Below are positions 16,727 through 47,697 of a stretch of 64,000 nucleotides of DNA, piece by piece. A model generated the notes under the pieces. It had not been told where the DNA came from. It saw only the letters and a program-made list of their open reading frames with translations, and made no database searches. Every line of letters begins with the position of its first letter. The stretch's first letter is position 1. Both the position numbers and the translations under genes were made by a program. Origin of the DNA: Pulveribacter suum (GTDB lineage Bacteria; Pseudomonadota; Gammaproteobacteria; Burkholderiales; Burkholderiaceae_C); contig NZ_CP027792.1 in assembly GCF_003013695.1 (NCBI RefSeq), positions 764,501 to 828,500 of the forward strand. Direction: 5' to 3'.

Positions 16727-18724
16727 ATGAAAAAGTGGTTGGAGATTTTGACACCGCTGCTGGTGGCAGCAGCCCTGGGCAGCGGCGCTGCAGCGCAGGC
16801 GCAGCAGGGCGCAGCTGCCCAGTCGGGCGACGAGGCGGTGCTGGAGATGCAAAAGGCCTTTCGCAAGGGCGACAAGCTGCGCCTGGCGCAGCTGCTGCCC
16901 GCCGCGCGCGGCCACGCGCTGGAGCCCTGGGCCGCCTACTGGGAGCTGCGCGCGCGGCTCGATGAAGCCCAGCCGCCCGAGGTGGACGCATTCTTGCAGC
17001 GCTGGGCCGGCAGCTACCAGGAAGACCGCCTGCGCAACGACTGGCTGCTGCTCTTGGGCCAGCGGCGCGACTGGGAGCGCTTTGCCGAGCACCACCCGCG
17101 CTTTCGCATGGGCGACGACCGCGAGGTGCGCTGCTATGCCCTCACCGTCGAGCACCTGAAGGGCCGCGCCCCGGCCGACGCTGGCGAGCAGCTGCTGGGC
17201 AACTGGTATGCGCAGCGCGATGCCGACGACGGCTGCGCCTACGCCGCCGCCGAACTGCTGGCCGCCGGGCGCATCAAGCCCATCGACGTGTGGCGCAAGG
17301 CGCGCCTGGCGGCCGAGGCCAACCGCCCGCGCGCCGTGCGCCGGGCGGTGGAGATCGTCGCGCCCGAGGCGCTGGCGCAGCTGCGCGAGGCGCTGGACGC
17401 TCCGTCCAAGTTCTTGACCGGCCGCGCCACCGCGCGCGGCAAGGAGCGCCAGGAGCTGGTCGTGCTGGCGCTCACCCGCATGGCCACGTCCGACACGGCC
17501 GGCGCCGCCCGGTTGCTGGACGGCAAATGGGGCGTGCACCTCTCGGCCGAGGAGCGCAACTGGCTGTGGGGCCTGATCGGCAAACAGGCGGCCGTGGGCC
17601 TGTCCCCCGACGCCCTGGGCTACTTCGCCCACGCCAGCCGCGACGCCGACCTGACCGATGACATGCTGGGCTGGAAGACCCGCGCCGCCCTGCGCGCCGG
17701 CCAGTGGAAGCTGGTGGCCAAAAGCATCGACGCCATGAGCGCCGCCGCGCGCGAGGACGCCACCTGGACCTACTGGCGCGCCCGTGCGTACATGTCCGAC
17801 CGCCCCGGCGACGAGGACCGCGCCCACGCCAGGAAGCTGTACGAGCGCATCGCCGCCACCACCGGCTTTTACGAGCAGCTGGCGCTGGAGGAGCTGGGCG
17901 CACGCATCACCCTGCCGCCCGCGCCCGCGCCGCTGACGGCCGAGGAAAAGGCCGCCGCCCGCGCCAACCCCAGCCTGAACCGGGGCCTGTACGCCATCTT
18001 GCTGGGCCTGCGCAGCGAGGGCGTGCGCGAGTGGAACTACGCCACCAATTTGCACACTCCCGGCGGCATGCCCGAGCGCGAACTGCTGGCCGCGGCCGAC
18101 TTCGCCTGCCAGCGCCAGGTGTGGGACCGCTGCATCAACACCAGCGAGCGCACGCGTGCGGCCATCGACATGGCGCAGCGCTTTCCCACGCCCTACCGCG
18201 ATGCGGTGCTGGCGCGCACCCGCTCCATCGGGCTGGAGACGGCCTATGTCTATGGCCTGATCCGCCAGGAAAGCCGCTTCATCATGGATGCGCGCTCCGG
18301 CGTGGGCGCCTCGGGCCTGATGCAGGTCATGCCCGCCACGGCGCGCTGGACGGCCAGGAAGATCGGCCTGGAGGGCTTCACGCCCGACCAGATCAACGAC
18401 ACCGAGACCAACATCACCATCGGCACCGCGTACCTGAAGCTGGCGCTGGACGATTTCCAGGGCTCCATGCCGCTGGCCGCTGCCGCCTACAACGCGGGGC
18501 CGGGGCGGCCGCGCAACTGGCGCAACGGCCCGGTGCTGGAGGCGGCGATCTGGGCCGAGAACGTGCCGTTTGCCGAGACGCGCGACTATGTGAAGAAGGT
18601 GCTGGCCAATACGGTGAACTACGCGGCGCTGCTGACGGGGCAGCCGCAGTCGCTCAAGAGCCACCTGGGGGTGGTGGGGCCGCGGGAGGTGGCGGGGGAG
18701 GATCCGAGCAGGGATCTGCCTTGA
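16727..18724 (+). CDS. slt: Soluble lytic murein transglycosylase
   Basis: Periplasmic enzyme cleaving peptidoglycan with formation of 1,6-anhydro-muramic acid. 665 residues, like E. coli Slt70 (645). A signal peptide (about 1-25, ending AAAQAQ) is followed by a long helical superhelix (about 35-480) and the GH23-type catalytic domain. The catalytic Glu is E515 in GLIRQESRF, followed by GASGLMQVMPATA and AAAYNAGPGRP. Start ATG 16727 has GGAG about 10 bases upstream and directly precedes the signal peptide. A role in cell wall turnover is established for the family; any link to flagellar rod insertion is not shown here. Confidence 0.93.
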   Translation: MKKWLEILTPLLVAAALGSGAAAQAQQGAAAQSGDEAVLEMQKAFRKGDKLRLAQLLPAARGHALEPWAAYWELRARLDEAQPPEVDAFLQRWAGSYQEDRLRNDWLLLLGQRRDWERFAEHHPRFRMGDDREVRCYALTVEHLKGRAPADAGEQLLGNWYAQRDADDGCAYAAAELLAAGRIKPIDVWRKARLAAEANRPRAVRRAVEIVAPEALAQLREALDAPSKFLTGRATARGKERQELVVLALTRMATSDTAGAARLLDGKWGVHLSAEERNWLWGLIGKQAAVGLSPDALGYFAHASRDADLTDDMLGWKTRAALRAGQWKLVAKSIDAMSAAAREDATWTYWRARAYMSDRPGDEDRAHARKLYERIAATTGFYEQLALEELGARITLPPAPAPLTAEEKAAARANPSLNRGLYAILLGLRSEGVREWNYATNLHTPGGMPERELLAAADFACQRQVWDRCINTSERTRAAIDMAQRFPTPYRDAVLARTRSIGLETAYVYGLIRQESRFIMDARSGVGASGLMQVMPATARWTARKIGLEGFTPDQINDTETNITIGTAYLKLALDDFQGSMPLAAAAYNAGPGRPRNWRNGPVLEAAIWAENVPFAETRDYVKKVLANTVNYAALLTGQPQSLKSHLGVVGPREVAGEDPSRDLP

Positions 18725-18736
18725 GGTGGTGGTTGC

Positions 18737-18794
18737 TCTTTAATTGATAGCTGGTTGCGCTTGGTTGGCTTGCGTTAGGGGCCGTTTTGGCTTT
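18737..18794 (+). repeat. Family A repeat flanking the giant palindrome (left)
   Basis: TTGATAGCTGGTTGCGCTTG, then GTTGGCTTGCGTTAGG and GGCCGTTTTGGC. It is the inverted partner of the copy at 19471-19528. Confidence 0.7.
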
Positions 18795-18839
18795 GATGTT
18801 GGTTTGATGTCGCTGGCCGGGACTCGCCCCGGCGGGCGA

Positions 18840-18871
18840 CCTCCTTTTCTTGCTCGCACAAGAAAAGGAGG
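18840..18871. repeat. End hairpin of the giant palindrome
   Basis: CCTCCTTTTCTTG and CAAGAAAAGGAGG form a perfect 13-bp stem with a six-base loop. The equivalent at the right arm (about 19397-19427) is CTTCCTTTCTTG/CAAGAAAGGAAG, with co-varying bases that keep pairing. Confidence 0.75.
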
Positions 18872-19096
18872 CAAAAGAAGTGCGCCCCCGATGCCCGTAT
18901 CCCCTTCGCTGCGCTACGGGGCATCCTGCGATGCTCGGGCGCGCGGCGGGCCGCAGAACTCACTTCGCTGCTGCGCAGCTGCGTTCAAACAACTGCGGCA
19001 AGTCAGATCACGAAGCAGGTGTGTCCTTCGGCACACCTGCCCGCCGCGCGCCCTGCGCTTCTCGGTACGGGCATAGGGGGGAAAGCGGGAACCACA

Positions 19097-19174
19097 CGGG
19101 CCATCGCTGCGCTCGGCCTGGCCTTCGCGGCGTGCAACGCCTGCGCGTGCGGGGCCGAGCGCAGCGATGGCCCG
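19097..19174. repeat. Central 22-bp-stem hairpin of the giant palindrome
   Basis: The stem halves are 19097-19118 and 19153-19174, perfectly complementary over 22 bp (core GCCATCGCTGCGCTCGGC), with a 34-base loop that contains smaller self-complementary parts. It marks the symmetry centre of the 653-bp structure. Confidence 0.8.
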
Positions 19175-19470
19175 TATGGTCTGCCACCCCTTGAGGCTGC
19201 GCCTGGGGCGGGGCGCTTGCGGGGTGGCAGGGGCGCCTGTGCGCCCATGCTTCGTGATCTGACTGGCCGCGTCTGTTTGAACGGAGCTGCGCAGCAGCGC
19301 AGTGAGTTATGCGGCCCACCCCGCAAGCGTCACGCCACAGGTTTGCCCCTTCGCGCAAGCGAAGGGGTCGCAGACTTCGGGGTCGTGTTCTTTGCTTCCT
19401 TTCTTGCACGAGCAAGAAAGGAAGTCGCCCGCCGGGGCGAGTCCCGGCCAGCGACATCAAAAAAAACTCA

Positions 19471-19528
19471 AGGCCAAAACGGCCCCAGCCCTTACCCAGC
19501 AAGCGCTAAAGGCTACAAAGTAAAGAGC
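19471..19528 (-). repeat. Family A repeat flanking the giant palindrome (right)
   Basis: Minus strand: TTTACTTTGTAGCCTTTAGC, then GCTTGCTGGGTAAGGGCT and GGGGCCGTTTTGGCC. Inverted with respect to the copy at 18737-18794, so the symmetric unit extends to about 790 bp. It abuts the 3' end of the piuC-like gene. Confidence 0.65.
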
Positions 19529-19532
19529 AAAC

Positions 19533-20216
19533 TCAAGGCCGCGCCCACCGCCGCAGCAGGTTGTGATACACGCCCGTCAGCTGCACCAGCCGCATATCGT
19601 CACCCGCCAGCAGCGGCGTCACCTGCTGCACCGACTGGTCCAGATCGAACAGCAGCGTGCGCTCCCCCTCATCCGCCACCAGGCTCTCGATCCAGAAAAA
19701 CGACGCCACGCGCGCGCCGCGCGTCACCGGCGTCACCCGGTGCAGGCTGGTGGACGGATACAGCACCATGTCCCCGGCCGCCAGCTTCACCGTCTGCACG
19801 CCGAAAGGCCCTTCCACCTCCAGCTCGCCGCCGTCGTACTCCTCGGGCTCGGCCAGAAACAGCGTAGCCGACAGGTCGGTGCGCATCTGCTGGCTGCTGC
19901 CGGGCAGGAACATCAGGGCGCTGTCCACGTGCGCGCCGTAGGTGCCGCCGCCTGCGTAGCGGTTGAACTTCGGCGGGTAGATGGTGCGCGGCAAGGCCGC
20001 CGAGATGAACAGCGGCGTGGCCGCCAGGCGGCGCAGGATGTGCTGGCCCAGGCGCACGGCCAGCGCGCTGCCGTCCGCCAGCTGCTGGTTGCGCTTGACG
20101 CTCTTGGCCAGCGTGCCGGCGGTGGCGGCGCCGTCCTGCCATTCGGCGGCGTCGAGTTCGGCGCGAAAGCTGCGCACTTCTTGCTTGGACAGGACCTGGT
20201 CGATGGAGATCAGCAT
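19533..20216 (-). CDS. PKHD-type Fe(II)/2-oxoglutarate hydroxylase, PiuC family
   Basis: A 227-residue cytoplasmic dioxygenase like PiuC/YbiX, usually encoded with siderophore receptors. The iron triad is visible: His96 and Asp98 in YGAHVDSA and His159 in TSLHRV, with Arg169 (RGARV) for 2-oxoglutarate. The C-terminal ~45 residues match the family's extra domain. Its ATG at 20216 overlaps the stop of the upstream alpha-hydroxy-acid oxidase by seven bases. The natural substrate is unknown; established association is with iron starvation. It is last in the Fur-boxed operon. Confidence 0.9.
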
Positions 20217-41046: not shown

Positions 41047-41107
41047 TTCAAAATTGATAGCTGCCCGCGCTTGACTGGCGGGCGCCAAAGGCCGATTTGG
41101 CTTGAAA
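41047..41107 (+). repeat. Family A palindromic repeat between cheZ and flhB
   Basis: TTCAAAATTGATAGCTGCCC, then GCGCTTGACTGGCGGGCGC, then AAAGGCCGATTTGG. It lies just past the cheZ stop and upstream of the flhB promoter; as a hairpin it could separate the two transcripts. Confidence 0.8.
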
Positions 41108-44397: not shown

Positions 44398-45855
44398 TCA
44401 ACCCTTGAGCAGCGCCAGCACGCCCTGCGGGATCTGGTTGGCCTGGGCCACCATGGCGGTGCCGGCCTGCTGCAGGATCTGGGTGCGCGACAGGTTGGCG
44501 GTTTCGGCCGCGAAGTCGGCGTCCTGGATGCGGCTGCGCGAAGCGGACATGTTCTCCGACGAGGTGTTCAGGTTGGCGATGGCCGTTTCGAAGCGGGCCT
44601 GCAGGGCACCGAAGCTGGCGCGCTGGCCGTTCACGGCAGCCAGGGCGGAGTCGATGACTTTGAGCGCCTCGGTGGAGCCATCCACGGTCGATACATCGAT
44701 AGTGCTGACTGGCCGAAGCGTCGCTGCTCCGTTGGTAAATGCTGGGGTTGTGCCTGTAGAACCGCTGATCGAGTAACCCTTGTCAGAGCTCAGCTCGATG
44801 TATCCGGCCGCAATGCCTGTGTCGTTTTGGTTTACGGCCACGCCGGCCTCGAACTTCTTTGTGGAGGCGTCATAGTTGCCGAGGGCAAACGTGGCGGTGG
44901 TGTTGGCCGATTTGTTCTCCAGCGAAATATTGGCACCGGACTCATTGATGAGCACGACCCCGTCGCCTTCGGAATTCAACTTGGCGGTAATGCCCGTTTG
45001 CGAGGCGGCATCGTTGAATGCCTTGACTGCCTCCGCAAGGCCTTGCGCATCATTTCCCTTGACGTTGAAGGTGACGTTCGCTGCGGTGGCGTTGTCGCCA
45101 ATGACAGAGAGGCTGTACGACTCGCCGGCGATGAACGTGTCTAGATTAACCTGATTGCGTGCCGACGCCACCACCCCCGTGGCTTCCGTCTTTGAGTTGA
45201 TCTGAGCCGCGATGGTGGCTGCGGTGTCGGTGCTGGTTGCCGCGATTTTTGCGCTCTGAAGCCCATCTATATTGAAGGAGCCCGAGAGGTCTGGCGCTGT
45301 TCCAGTGACCGTCGGCGTGACCGCGGATGAGCTTGCAAGCTGCGTGCCATACGTGGCGGTGCGGAAGTTGCCCGTGGTCGCGGTGATCGTCTGGTTGGCG
45401 TTGGCCCCCACCTGGAAAGTGGCCGAACCAAAGGAGCCGTCGAGCAGCTTTTGGCCATTGAATTCGGTCGTCACCGCCATGCGGTCCAGTTCGGATAGCA
45501 GCTGACCCACCTCGGCCTGGATGGCCTTGCGGTCGGAGGCCGAGTTGGTCGCGTTGGCCGACTGCACCGACAACTCGCGCACCCGCTGCAGGATGTTGCC
45601 GGCGCCAGCCAGCGCGCTTTCAGCCACCTGCGACAGCGAGATGCCGTCGTTGGCGTTGCGCGCCGCCTGGTTCAGGCCGCGGATTTGCGCCGTGAAGCGC
45701 TCGGAGATCGCCAGGCCGGCCGCGTCGTCCTTGGCGCTGTTGATGCGCAGGCCCGACGACAGGCGCTGGATGGAGGTGTTGAGCGAACCCTGGCTCACGC
45801 CCAGGTTGCGCTGGGCGGTGAGCGAGGCGACGTTGGTGTTGATCGTGGATGCCAT
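44398..45855 (-). CDS. fliC: Flagellin (first copy)
   Basis: Filament subunit, 485 residues. The D0/D1 ends are canonical: [36 protein letters not shown] at the N-terminus and [19 protein letters not shown] with [13 protein letters not shown] at the C-terminus. The centre (about 180-400) is variable and less GC-rich than its neighbours. It is divergent from a second flagellin with nearly identical ends. AGGAG lies eight bases before ATG 45855. No sigma-28 site in the correct orientation was found in its 345-bp upstream region, unlike its partner. Confidence 0.96.
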
Positions 45856-46200
45856 GGCAAGACTCCTGCGGGGCTTCGGTTCGGTGGGTGCTGCCAGCTA
45901 AGGGCAGCAAGCCCTGTTGGCGGACGGTGGGAGACGATGCTGGCGATTGTGGTGACGCCCCGCCGCGGCGTTGGCCCGATAAACGGCGCAAAAACCGGCC
46001 AATCCGTGCGTTAGCACCCTAAAGTTTTCCAAGCACAGTCCGAAAACACATTCAACGGGACGTTTGAAACAAGGAGTGACGCCCCGCCGTTCCACAGCAA
46101 GGCCCGCACAGGCACTGGGAACCCGCGCTGCTCAGCGGTTTGAGAGGCGCAGACGGCGGCAACGCCACATTCCAGCCACTTCTTTTGCCGGAGATTTGCA
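45856..46200. promoter_or_regulatory. 345-bp region between divergent flagellin genes
   Basis: No gene is seen. It holds a sigma-28-like promoter facing the second flagellin (46020-46046) and a 154-base leader for it. Toward the first flagellin I see only the AGGAG ribosome site. Both outer borders are the near-identical, inverted flagellin 5' ends. Confidence 0.7.
46020..46046 (+). promoter_or_regulatory. Sigma-28 (FliA) promoter for the second flagellin
   Basis: TAAAGTTT, an 11-base spacer, then TCCGAAAA. The -35 is a perfect match to the FliA consensus and the -10 matches six of eight. The leader to ATG 46201 is long, about 150 bases. Confidence 0.85.
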
Positions 46201-47697
46201 ATGGCTTCCACCATCAATACCAACGTCGCCTCGCTCACCGCCCAGCGCAACCTGGGCGTCAGCCAGAACTCGCTCAACACCTCCATCCAGCGCCTGTCGT
46301 CGGGCCTGCGCATCAACAGCGCCAAGGACGACGCGGCCGGCTTGGCTATTTCCGAGCGCTTCACCAGCCAGATCCGCGGCCTGAACCAGGCGGTGCGCAA
46401 TGCCAACGACGGCATTTCGCTGGCGCAGACCGCTGAAGGCGCGCTCAAGGCCTCGGGCGACATCCTGCAGCGGGTGCGCGAGCTGTCGGTGCAGTCGGCC
46501 AACGCTACCAACAGCGCCAGCGACCGCAAGGCTATCCAGGCGGAAGTGGGGCAGCTGCTGTCCGAAATGGACCGTATCTCGCAAACGACCGAGTTCAACG
46601 GCCAGAAGCTGCTGGACGGCTCCTTTGGCTCGGCCACCTTCCAAGTGGGCGCCAATGCCAACCAGACGATTACGGCCACTACGGGTAACTTCCGCACCTC
46701 TACCTACGGTGCGCAATTGATGAAATCGGCAGGTAGTGTTGGTTTGGATGGGGCAGGTCCTCCCGCCACCACGGCAAACCCAGGTATCGGTGGGACGGTT
46801 GCCATCAACGGGTTGCAATCAGCAAACGTACAGTTTGGTGCGGCTCCGACAGATGCCGTAAGTGCAGCGGTTGCAGCTGCGAAAATAAATGCTGTTGCTG
46901 AGAAAACCGGGGTTTCTGCCTCGGCACGCAACGTATCACAGCTTGAATTGGTTAATGGTCAGTCTTACTCGCTGGCTATTACCTCGAGTAATTCCACTGC
47001 TGCTAACGTGACTTTCAGCGTTTCCACAGGGGGCGATCTGAGCGAAGCGGTGAAGGCGATCAACGATGTGTCCTCGCAGACCGGGGTCACCGCCAAACTC
47101 GCTGACGGCAAGATCACGCTGACCAATGAGGCGGGCGACAACATCCGCCTGGTCAACAACTCTGCAGCCAACACCGCCACCTTCAAGCTGGCCGCGTCGG
47201 ATGGCGCCGGCGGCTTCGGCACTGTTTCAGCCGCTGTGGATAACACGGCAGGGGCCAACGCAGCAGCGACGTCGGGAACTGTGGAGTTGAGCTCCGATAA
47301 AGGTTTTAGTACCGCAGACAGCACTGCTGGCGCCGCACCTGCAGCCAGTTTGATTACTGGGGCGGGCACGTCCAAGCTCAACTCCGTAGACCAAATCGAC
47401 GTGTCCACGGTGGACGGCGCCACCAAGGCGCTGAAGATCATCGACTCGGCCCTAGCCGCCGTGAACGGCCAGCGCGCCAGCTTCGGCGCCCTGCAATCGC
47501 GCTTCGAGACTGCGGTGAACAACCTGCAGACCTCGGCCGAGAACATGTCCGCCTCCCGCAGCCGCATCCAGGATGCCGACTTCGCGGCCGAAACCGCCAA
47601 CCTGTCGCGCTCGCAGATCCTGCAGCAGGCCGGCACCGCCATGGTGGCCCAGGCCAACCAGCTGCCCCAGGGCGTGCTGGCCCTGCTGCGCGGCTGA
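46201..47697 (+). CDS. fliC: Flagellin (second copy)
   Basis: Filament subunit, 498 residues, paralogous to the divergent gene at 44398-45855. The first ~175 and last ~90 residues are nearly the same in both; the middle differs but keeps traceable homology ([20 protein letters not shown] here against [20 protein letters not shown] there), so both derive from one duplication. Bases about 46720-47030 are noticeably less GC-rich. It has a strong sigma-28-like promoter and a strong terminator hairpin, and leads toward fliD-fliS-fliT. GGAG lies eight bases before the ATG. Confidence 0.96.

Follow-up and report, generated by a model that had tools for sequence, protein, structure and literature searches.

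A dispersed palindromic repeat in Pulveribacter suum whose two arms may be divergent structured RNA units ending in a candidate triple-helix pseudoknot

Intergenic repeats of the REP/BIME and REPIN types are made of paired inverted units and are biased towards the 3' ends of genes, and in telomerase RNA the pyrimidines of loop 1 lie on the purine strand of stem 2. To our knowledge, bacterial triple-helix pseudoknots other than riboswitches are rare. In the REP/RAYT and IS200/IS605 systems the transposase is said to recognise folded ends. The module described here recalls telomerase RNA in that its loop 1 is predicted to place pyrimidines along the stem 2 purine strand, and differs in sitting within a repeat element and in having no known ligand or protein partner. 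Paired inverted intergenic units with a bias to gene 3' ends are shared with REP/BIME, REPIN and the R0 and R2 repeats of Pseudomonas fluorescens (PMC2718517); the latter are described there as 89-110 bp long with inverted repeats of 24 and 43 bp, whereas the present units span about 300 nt and include a putative pseudoknot. BRE, a beta-proteobacterial repeat (PMC3110155), likewise occurs in Comamonadaceae and Rhodocyclaceae and is set apart by its description, being about 90 bp long, often in tandem and variable in number.

The PIT/BoxC/TM_ECO repeats (Holder 2015, PMC4666352) resemble the present family in being dispersed bacterial repeats a single strand of which can form pyrimidine/purine triplets. 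TM_ECO is described as a GC-rich purine-motif repeat with the consensus CCCTCNCCC-N3-6-GGGNGAGGG-N3-GGGNGAGGG; compared by description, the arms found here are A/T-rich at that place, carry the pyrimidine motif on the favoured strand within a predicted H-type pseudoknot, and stand at both ends of a 650-bp palindrome. According to the same source, pyrimidine-motif triplexes occur in RNA and purine-motif ones cannot form in RNA. The middles of two elements (L069, and L190 of genome G001) hold a GC-rich, PIT/TM_ECO-like CCCTCTCCC...GGGAGAGGG...GGGTGAGGG, as if a repeat lay within a repeat.

The Rfam family TwoAYGGAY (RF01731; Weinberg 2010, PMC2864571), an RNA of unknown function for which CsrA binding has been predicted by others (PMC4333381), corresponds in distant relatives to the inner half of an arm, directly 5' of the pseudoknot module and on the same strand. 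Its matches stop before that module, the portions available of the original description mention no inverted pairing, and the family has no match in the window at E values up to 1, nor at its 43-bit cut-off. Within the literature covered, most subscription journals lying outside it, no report on triplex pseudoknots, intergenic palindromes or long inverted repeats joined these parts, no link of TwoAYGGAY to a pseudoknot, triplex or palindrome was found, and a term look-up in a 2025 REP survey (PMC12306157) returned no corresponding term.

The window, that is the whole stretch of 64,000 nucleotides analysed, contains the palindrome between the 3' ends of two convergent genes, as the initial annotation had placed it: an SLT transglycosylase gene (slt) with its stop at 18724 and, on the minus strand at 19533-20216, a gene for a PKHD-type 2OG-Fe(II) hydroxylase (piuC-like). 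Aligned to its reverse complement, the stretch 18733-19530 is 75% identical in 819 columns, and the two halves of 18737-19528 gave a local alignment score of 285 compared with 21.3±2.7 (maximum 33) in 300 dinucleotide shuffles; the mirrored similarity is thus far above that of shuffled sequence and the palindrome is real. Its strongest paired block joins 18778-18847 to 19417-19486 (91%), another joins 18941-19017 to 19248-19324 (88%), and the central hairpin (19091-19180, no strand assigned) pairs 19091-19118 with 19153-19180 at 96%, with 34 nt separating the arms. All three components described at the outset, paired ends, paired inner blocks and central hairpin, were therefore recovered; copy L002 has the hairpin loop in the opposite orientation to that of the window copy. 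The core element measures about 655 bp (18804-19460, no strand assigned), as judged from the copy match, the self-alignment and its Pfam-empty frames, and the limits of 18806-19458 proposed earlier fall within a few bases of the span matched by L002 (query 25-683 of window 18778-19490, i.e. 18802-19460). No Pfam domain was found at E values up to 0.01 in the six long frames overlapping the palindrome, so that a protein-coding element was rejected and the description of the core as gene-free holds. The only other window site with a comparable arm score, 45341-46715, contains two divergent flagellin-like genes (recognised by eye), which are bracketed by the inverted repeat pair 44408-44700/47395-47687 (87%); window self-alignment also gave the pair 29258-29376/60972-61090 (82%).

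Outside the core lie two inverted copies of a repeat, family A, one 3' of slt (18737-18798, plus strand) and one 3' of the piuC-like gene (19467-19528, minus strand, with a T run). Both hold terminator-like hairpins reading inward from the flanking gene, and part of the repeat (52 nt, 77%) stands by itself at 41052-41103, on which grounds family A probably lies outside the core unit. Terminator-like sites number eight in 18700-19560, compared with 1.3±1.1 in shuffles, and two of the eight are H3 hairpins of the arms read inward. No Rfam family reached its gathering score in the window, and at E values up to 1 only eight sub-threshold matches appeared, none accepted as a known RNA: six microRNA families and one snaR-A on the central hairpin, and hya RNA at 18965-19048 on the minus strand (E 0.2). 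A crude scan of the window element gave no sigma-70-like promoter.

The initial annotation had suggested recording copy number and presence or absence at orthologous loci, and both were recorded. Three full copies occur at different loci of the 3.36-Mb genome (G000), at 783 kb (the window), 2599 kb (91% identical, between convergent genes) and 2420 kb (89%, between tandem genes), the central loop of the 2599-kb copy being inverted relative to the other two. Among related genomes the corresponding sites are filled or empty. At the 2420-kb locus, G001 carries an element, the left half of which aligns in inverted orientation with the right half of the element in G000; G003 retains just a remnant hairpin flanked by a pair of inverted family A copies, which would fit core loss between GCCGGG repeats; G004 has only a family A-like stretch, and G002 and G008 have short spacers (65 and 34 bp). 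At the 2599-kb locus, where filled and empty calls exclude G002, G004 and G008, a 61-bp spacer without element is found in G001 and other DNA in G003 and G014. At the slt locus, surveyed in nine genomes (two without a neighbour match, G002 with a contig end only and G006 left out), G001 has an element with 354 bp between its ends, and G003, G004, G008 and G014 have none. A hairpin repeat, GTCATCCCCGCG...CGCGGGGATCCAG, clusters at that gene border in G008 (L155) and is also present inside the Comamonas element L074.

Copies at the same locus in G000 and G001 can be aligned over no more than about 250-270 nt, with 81% (slt) and 86% (2420 kb) identity; several comparisons between different loci of these two genomes give higher values, as much as 92% over 261 nt. 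Among full-length copies of one genome, identity is 89-91% in G000 and 94% in G003, and for G001 the least similar pair shares 83% over 252 nt and the most similar 97% over 517 nt. How alike two copies are is therefore not predicted by where they lie, in keeping with repeated insertion or gene conversion.

The family reaches well beyond the genus. A 22-base end motif was found in at least 120 stretches of named genomes, the 80 titles listed including Variovorax, Zoogloea, Polaromonas, Comamonas, Acidovorax and Sulfuritalea, and adjacent motifs were oriented '+-' in 34 cases, '++' in three and '-+' in none. Two of the 34 pairs are second views of copies (L004, L005), kept in this count and dropped from the arm sets. 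A model of the pseudoknot module, R1, matches 23 of 60 genomes, the own genome included, and 66 of 398 genomes sampled over the phylum with at most 11 candidates per genome scored. Forty-eight of the 66 belong to the own class (11 in the own family, seven elsewhere in the order and 30 elsewhere in the class), and the 18 outside it have weak matches, with best E values of 9e-4 to 3e-6. Among the matches listed for G000, G001 and G003 of the genus, 26 of 27 form 13 outward-facing pairs as judged by eye, and the 104 R1 matches of two distant genomes include no two within 1.5 kb of each other that face inward or stand in tandem. Twelve of 20 distant-genome stretches carry two outward-facing R1 matches and a thirteenth, L162, has the same order with a weak second match; L163, L166, L172 and L175 have one strong match each, L173 has a tandem pair, L179 an inward-facing pair and L169 several matches. 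Of the 88 R1 matches in G247, six are paired when R1 alone is used, and at least 25 have a partner when listed TwoAYGGAY matches are counted too; both ends are present in all 12 aligned G247 copies. The window element was found in none of 50,697 phage records and two of 72,556 plasmid records, and a phage or plasmid vehicle was accordingly rejected.

Read outward, most of the 150 unique arms present the same order of S1a, a pyrimidine L1, S2a, a short loop with S1b, a purine S2b, the hairpin H3 and GTCCCGGC, and from its sequence each arm looks like an H-type pseudoknot with a candidate triple helix. In the window, the left module occupies 18809-18888 on the minus strand (G000 783309-783388 minus; R1, 90.4 bits). 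Its parts, all on that strand, are S1a CGCAC (18880-18884), complementary to loop GTGCG; L1 TTCTTTTG (18872-18879), whose parallel match to S2b AAGAAAAG provides candidate base triples; the S2 hairpin (18840-18871), with a 13-bp stem and loop TGCGAG; and the H3 hairpin TCGCCC-GCCG-GGGCGA (18824-18839). The right module lies on the plus strand at 19378-19455 (G000 783878-783955 plus; R1, 88.3 bits), with S1a TCGTG (19383-19387) complementary to loop CACGA, L1 TTCTTTG (19388-19394) in parallel match to S2b AAGAAAG, an S2 hairpin with a 13-bp stem and loop ACGA (19395-19424), and H3 (19425-19440). In both arms the S1 strands are complementary and every L1 pyrimidine matches S2b in register.

Compensating changes, which the initial annotation had proposed to look for in the arms, were found there. 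For S2 and H3 in 78 aligned arms (alignment A1, 78 of 109 listed), 99.1% of cells are paired and 157 are doubly changed, against 41.8±4.5 when shuffled and at most seven when slid, these cells and all combinations being counts of sequences, not events. The H3 statistics are biased because the search motif of the end-motif loci (L033-L152) overlaps this hairpin; S1, L1 and S2 lie outside the motif. At least four exactly complementary nucleotides of S1 are found in 58 of 69 distinct arms, compared with 26.3±3.2 (maximum 35) in 300 permutations of the loops, so that both S1 and S2 covary as in an H-type pseudoknot. A first parser found no stem in 16 of 178 arms and a second failed in one of the 150 unique arms. 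Over the whole arm, the inner part included, 28 of 82 predicted pairs are doubly changed in 18 arms, among them long-range helices far from the ends, which would be unneeded if only the element ends had a role. The structured inner arms of the window have approximate limits of 18889-19090 (left, minus strand), the position taken by TwoAYGGAY in distant relatives, and 19181-19377 (right, plus strand).

The third strand covaries as well. Compared in parallel (T to A, C to G), L1 matches S2b at 436 of 511 positions (85%) at register 0, at 37-56% at eight other shifts and at 357±7 positions (maximum 380) in 2000 permutations, and loop C tracks stem G to several different positions. Triples of the U•A-U and C+•G-C kinds would require such tracking, and the parallel course of L1 pyrimidines along the S2 purine strand is the one expected of a major-groove triplex. 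It is weaker in the distant set, where the match is missing in several short arms (2-4 of 8) and the parallel and antiparallel means are both 6.42, the permuted parallel value being 5.71±0.11 (maximum 6.12). The best parallel match exceeds the antiparallel one in 28 of 73 combinations, the reverse is true in six and 39 are ties; in the distant set, with equal means, the ratio is 16 to 11. A strand-exchange switch, with L1 a copy of S2a, was rejected since asymmetric tracts are mirrored, not repeated.

Mismatches at fixed columns of the outward strand in the 78 arms comprise 15 G·U, one A·C and nine others (12, one and nine over 45 distinct stems). Since G·U outnumbers A·C by 15 to 1, the outward strand is taken as the structured one, and this favoured strand is the one bearing the pyrimidine motif. 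The fixed-column count was preferred to that over 91 stems (31 G·T, five A·C, 15 other) because the parser behind the latter rewards G·T, and the ratio of 49 to 1 in distant arms, one weak L162 match dropped, is not independent as those arms were found by R1.

In distant relatives the inner arm is occupied by TwoAYGGAY. Eight matches at the Rfam gathering score were found in seven of 20 distant stretches, and nine of 20 whole genomes tried had matches over the cut-off; none was found in ten of these genomes, including all six of the own order (G000, G003 and four others), or in 18 loci of the end-motif scan. Stretch L174 has TwoAYGGAY on both arms, one match over the cut-off and one below, each with two hairpins, and three of the four loops read AUGGAU and one AGGGAU. 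Among the TwoAYGGAY matches listed for G247 (58 of 76), 34 are followed on the same strand by R1 33-64 nt 3', and 19 of the other 24 have an opposite-strand R1 whose outer edge is 515-602 nt away, which is the other arm; for G424 (eight of 12 listed), R1 lies 51-58 nt 3' on the same strand in seven of the eight. Given this place in the inner arm, this orphan family would seem to be one half of a larger unit. As the own order gave no match, the proposed homology between the window inner arms and TwoAYGGAY is based on their position and common architecture. Another Rfam match, to 5_ureB_sRNA (120 bits), was observed at L041:4020-4302, minus strand, in an unplaced Proteobacteria MAG.

The best explanation, which we give an even chance of being right, is a dispersed, transposase-less palindromic repeat with two divergent structured RNA units. 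The two arms would be divergent copies of one unit of about 300 nt, built from inside outward of a branched domain (TwoAYGGAY in distant relatives), an H-type pseudoknot and a short GC end hairpin, with the loop 1 pyrimidines forming U•A-U and C+•G-C triples in the stem 2 major groove. The favoured strand would act as RNA, its triple-helix pseudoknot and end hairpin may cap the 3' end against exonucleases, and the whole repeat would be moved in trans by some enzyme. Single-stranded DNA could form the same structure too; as the arm is folded along its whole length, an RNA product is favoured over folded DNA ends alone, and for this reason paired RNA units are ranked first and folded-DNA mobility second. 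Two suggestions of the initial annotation gain support. Dispersal, presence or absence at orthologous loci and sharp inverted ends in a distant relative agree with a non-autonomous mobile unit, whose enzyme is presumed; compensatory changes in the arms, including the pseudoknot, agree with a long structured RNA, whose action as RNA is likewise presumed. The two appear to be sides of one thing.

Several features of the ends and middles of copies were also observed. At 13 of 34 ends of G247 and G457 copies (flanks L160, L200-L204 and L225-L236), a GGTTCTTCGCGG-like stretch (up to three substitutions) is found 25-33 nt beyond the terminus, and L238, the locus of an ISL3-like gene, has one as well. 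The Rhodocyclaceae/Rhodocyclales copies L034, L042 and L058, of 1.3-1.9 kb, have one ORF each between the arms. Two of these ORFs are without Pfam match and one is weakly methyltransferase-like, below the cut-off, and with no PADLOC match they were rejected as mobilisation genes. In L064 an IS30-like transposase gene (by eye) lies between two S2 hairpins without L1 and S1, from which it seems that an IS was inserted in this element.

Were the structure to act as single-stranded DNA, the arms would be the ends of a non-autonomous element whose folded form is recognised by a transposase, much as in REP/RAYT or IS200/IS605 systems, a reading that we consider unlikely but a serious competitor. In the distant genus, 12 copies of G247 and five of G457 have sharp inverted termini close to TTGATACCGGACTGGCAA at both ends, with mostly unrelated flanks beyond (L226 and L227 share one), and no target duplication was found in these 17 copies of two species, the longest shared flank word being 3.47 against 3.43±0.14 for shuffled pairing. 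Both arms are kept whichever way the neighbouring genes run, and a Y1_Tnp match is present in nine of 12 genomes, among them G000, G001, G008, G017, G022, G247, G457 and G101. However, covariation extends over the inner arm as well, at a great distance from the ends, and Y1_Tnp is absent from G003 and G424, which bear three and seven outward pairs, while G004, without any arm match, does have it, in pieces; a Y1 (RAYT-type) transposase is thus not found in every host, as a REPIN/RAYT system would have it, and RAYT was rejected as a necessary partner. No autonomous copy was found, and the ORFs between the arms of longer copies have no transposase match, bar the nested IS30-like gene. Very improbable, to our mind, is an ordinary MITE, derived by deletion from a DDE transposon with long inverted ends and folding only as a by-product. 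It would account for the inverted ends (sharp in the 17 G247 and G457 copies; the window genome has three copies), the dispersal and the lack of a transposase, but not for compensatory change and strand-biased wobble, and the missing target duplication in the distant genus is against it. No parent transposon with the same ends was found, and an ISL3-driven MITE was rejected, as G000 and G001 have no ISL3 transposase match and the element terminus (up to two substitutions) is absent from the loci of four ISL3-like genes in other genomes.

It might also be that the element is a bidirectional 3'-end module, each arm folding in the mRNA of the gene that reads into it and stabilising or ending that mRNA. 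By our own gene caller, two of 43 paired elements lie between divergent genes, 15 between convergent and 26 between tandem genes, a depletion between divergent genes that fits many intergenic repeats as well; neighbour genes point towards the element in 116 of 181 arm-neighbour cases, and the inward-read H3 hairpins of both window arms count as terminator-like. If arms served only neighbouring mRNAs, one of them should decay in tandem settings, but none does: the 23 arms not read in the structured sense by the upstream gene have 0.17 mismatches and a triple match of 0.93, compared with 0.33 and 0.91 in the 21 other arms. Recent insertion could also explain this equal intactness. Moreover, terminator-like hairpins often precede the element already (nine of 34 ends reading towards it, one of 34 reading away, 60 of 1000 random stretches), and the 3'-end role is on balance distinctly unlikely.

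Beyond the preferred reading of paired RNA units, it is possible, though we put it forward only tentatively, that these repeats are a new class of element, a palindrome of two divergent RNA copies ending in a triple-helix pseudoknot, whose folded RNA or single-stranded DNA drives its own spread across the class and of which TwoAYGGAY is the visible half. The repeat gives a physical context to this orphan Rfam family of unknown function and proposes a bacterial triple-helix pseudoknot that is no riboswitch, backed by third-strand covariation. The proposition that some large palindromes between genes consist of paired RNA units also becomes testable, and with up to 88 module matches in one genome such units could affect many gene borders.
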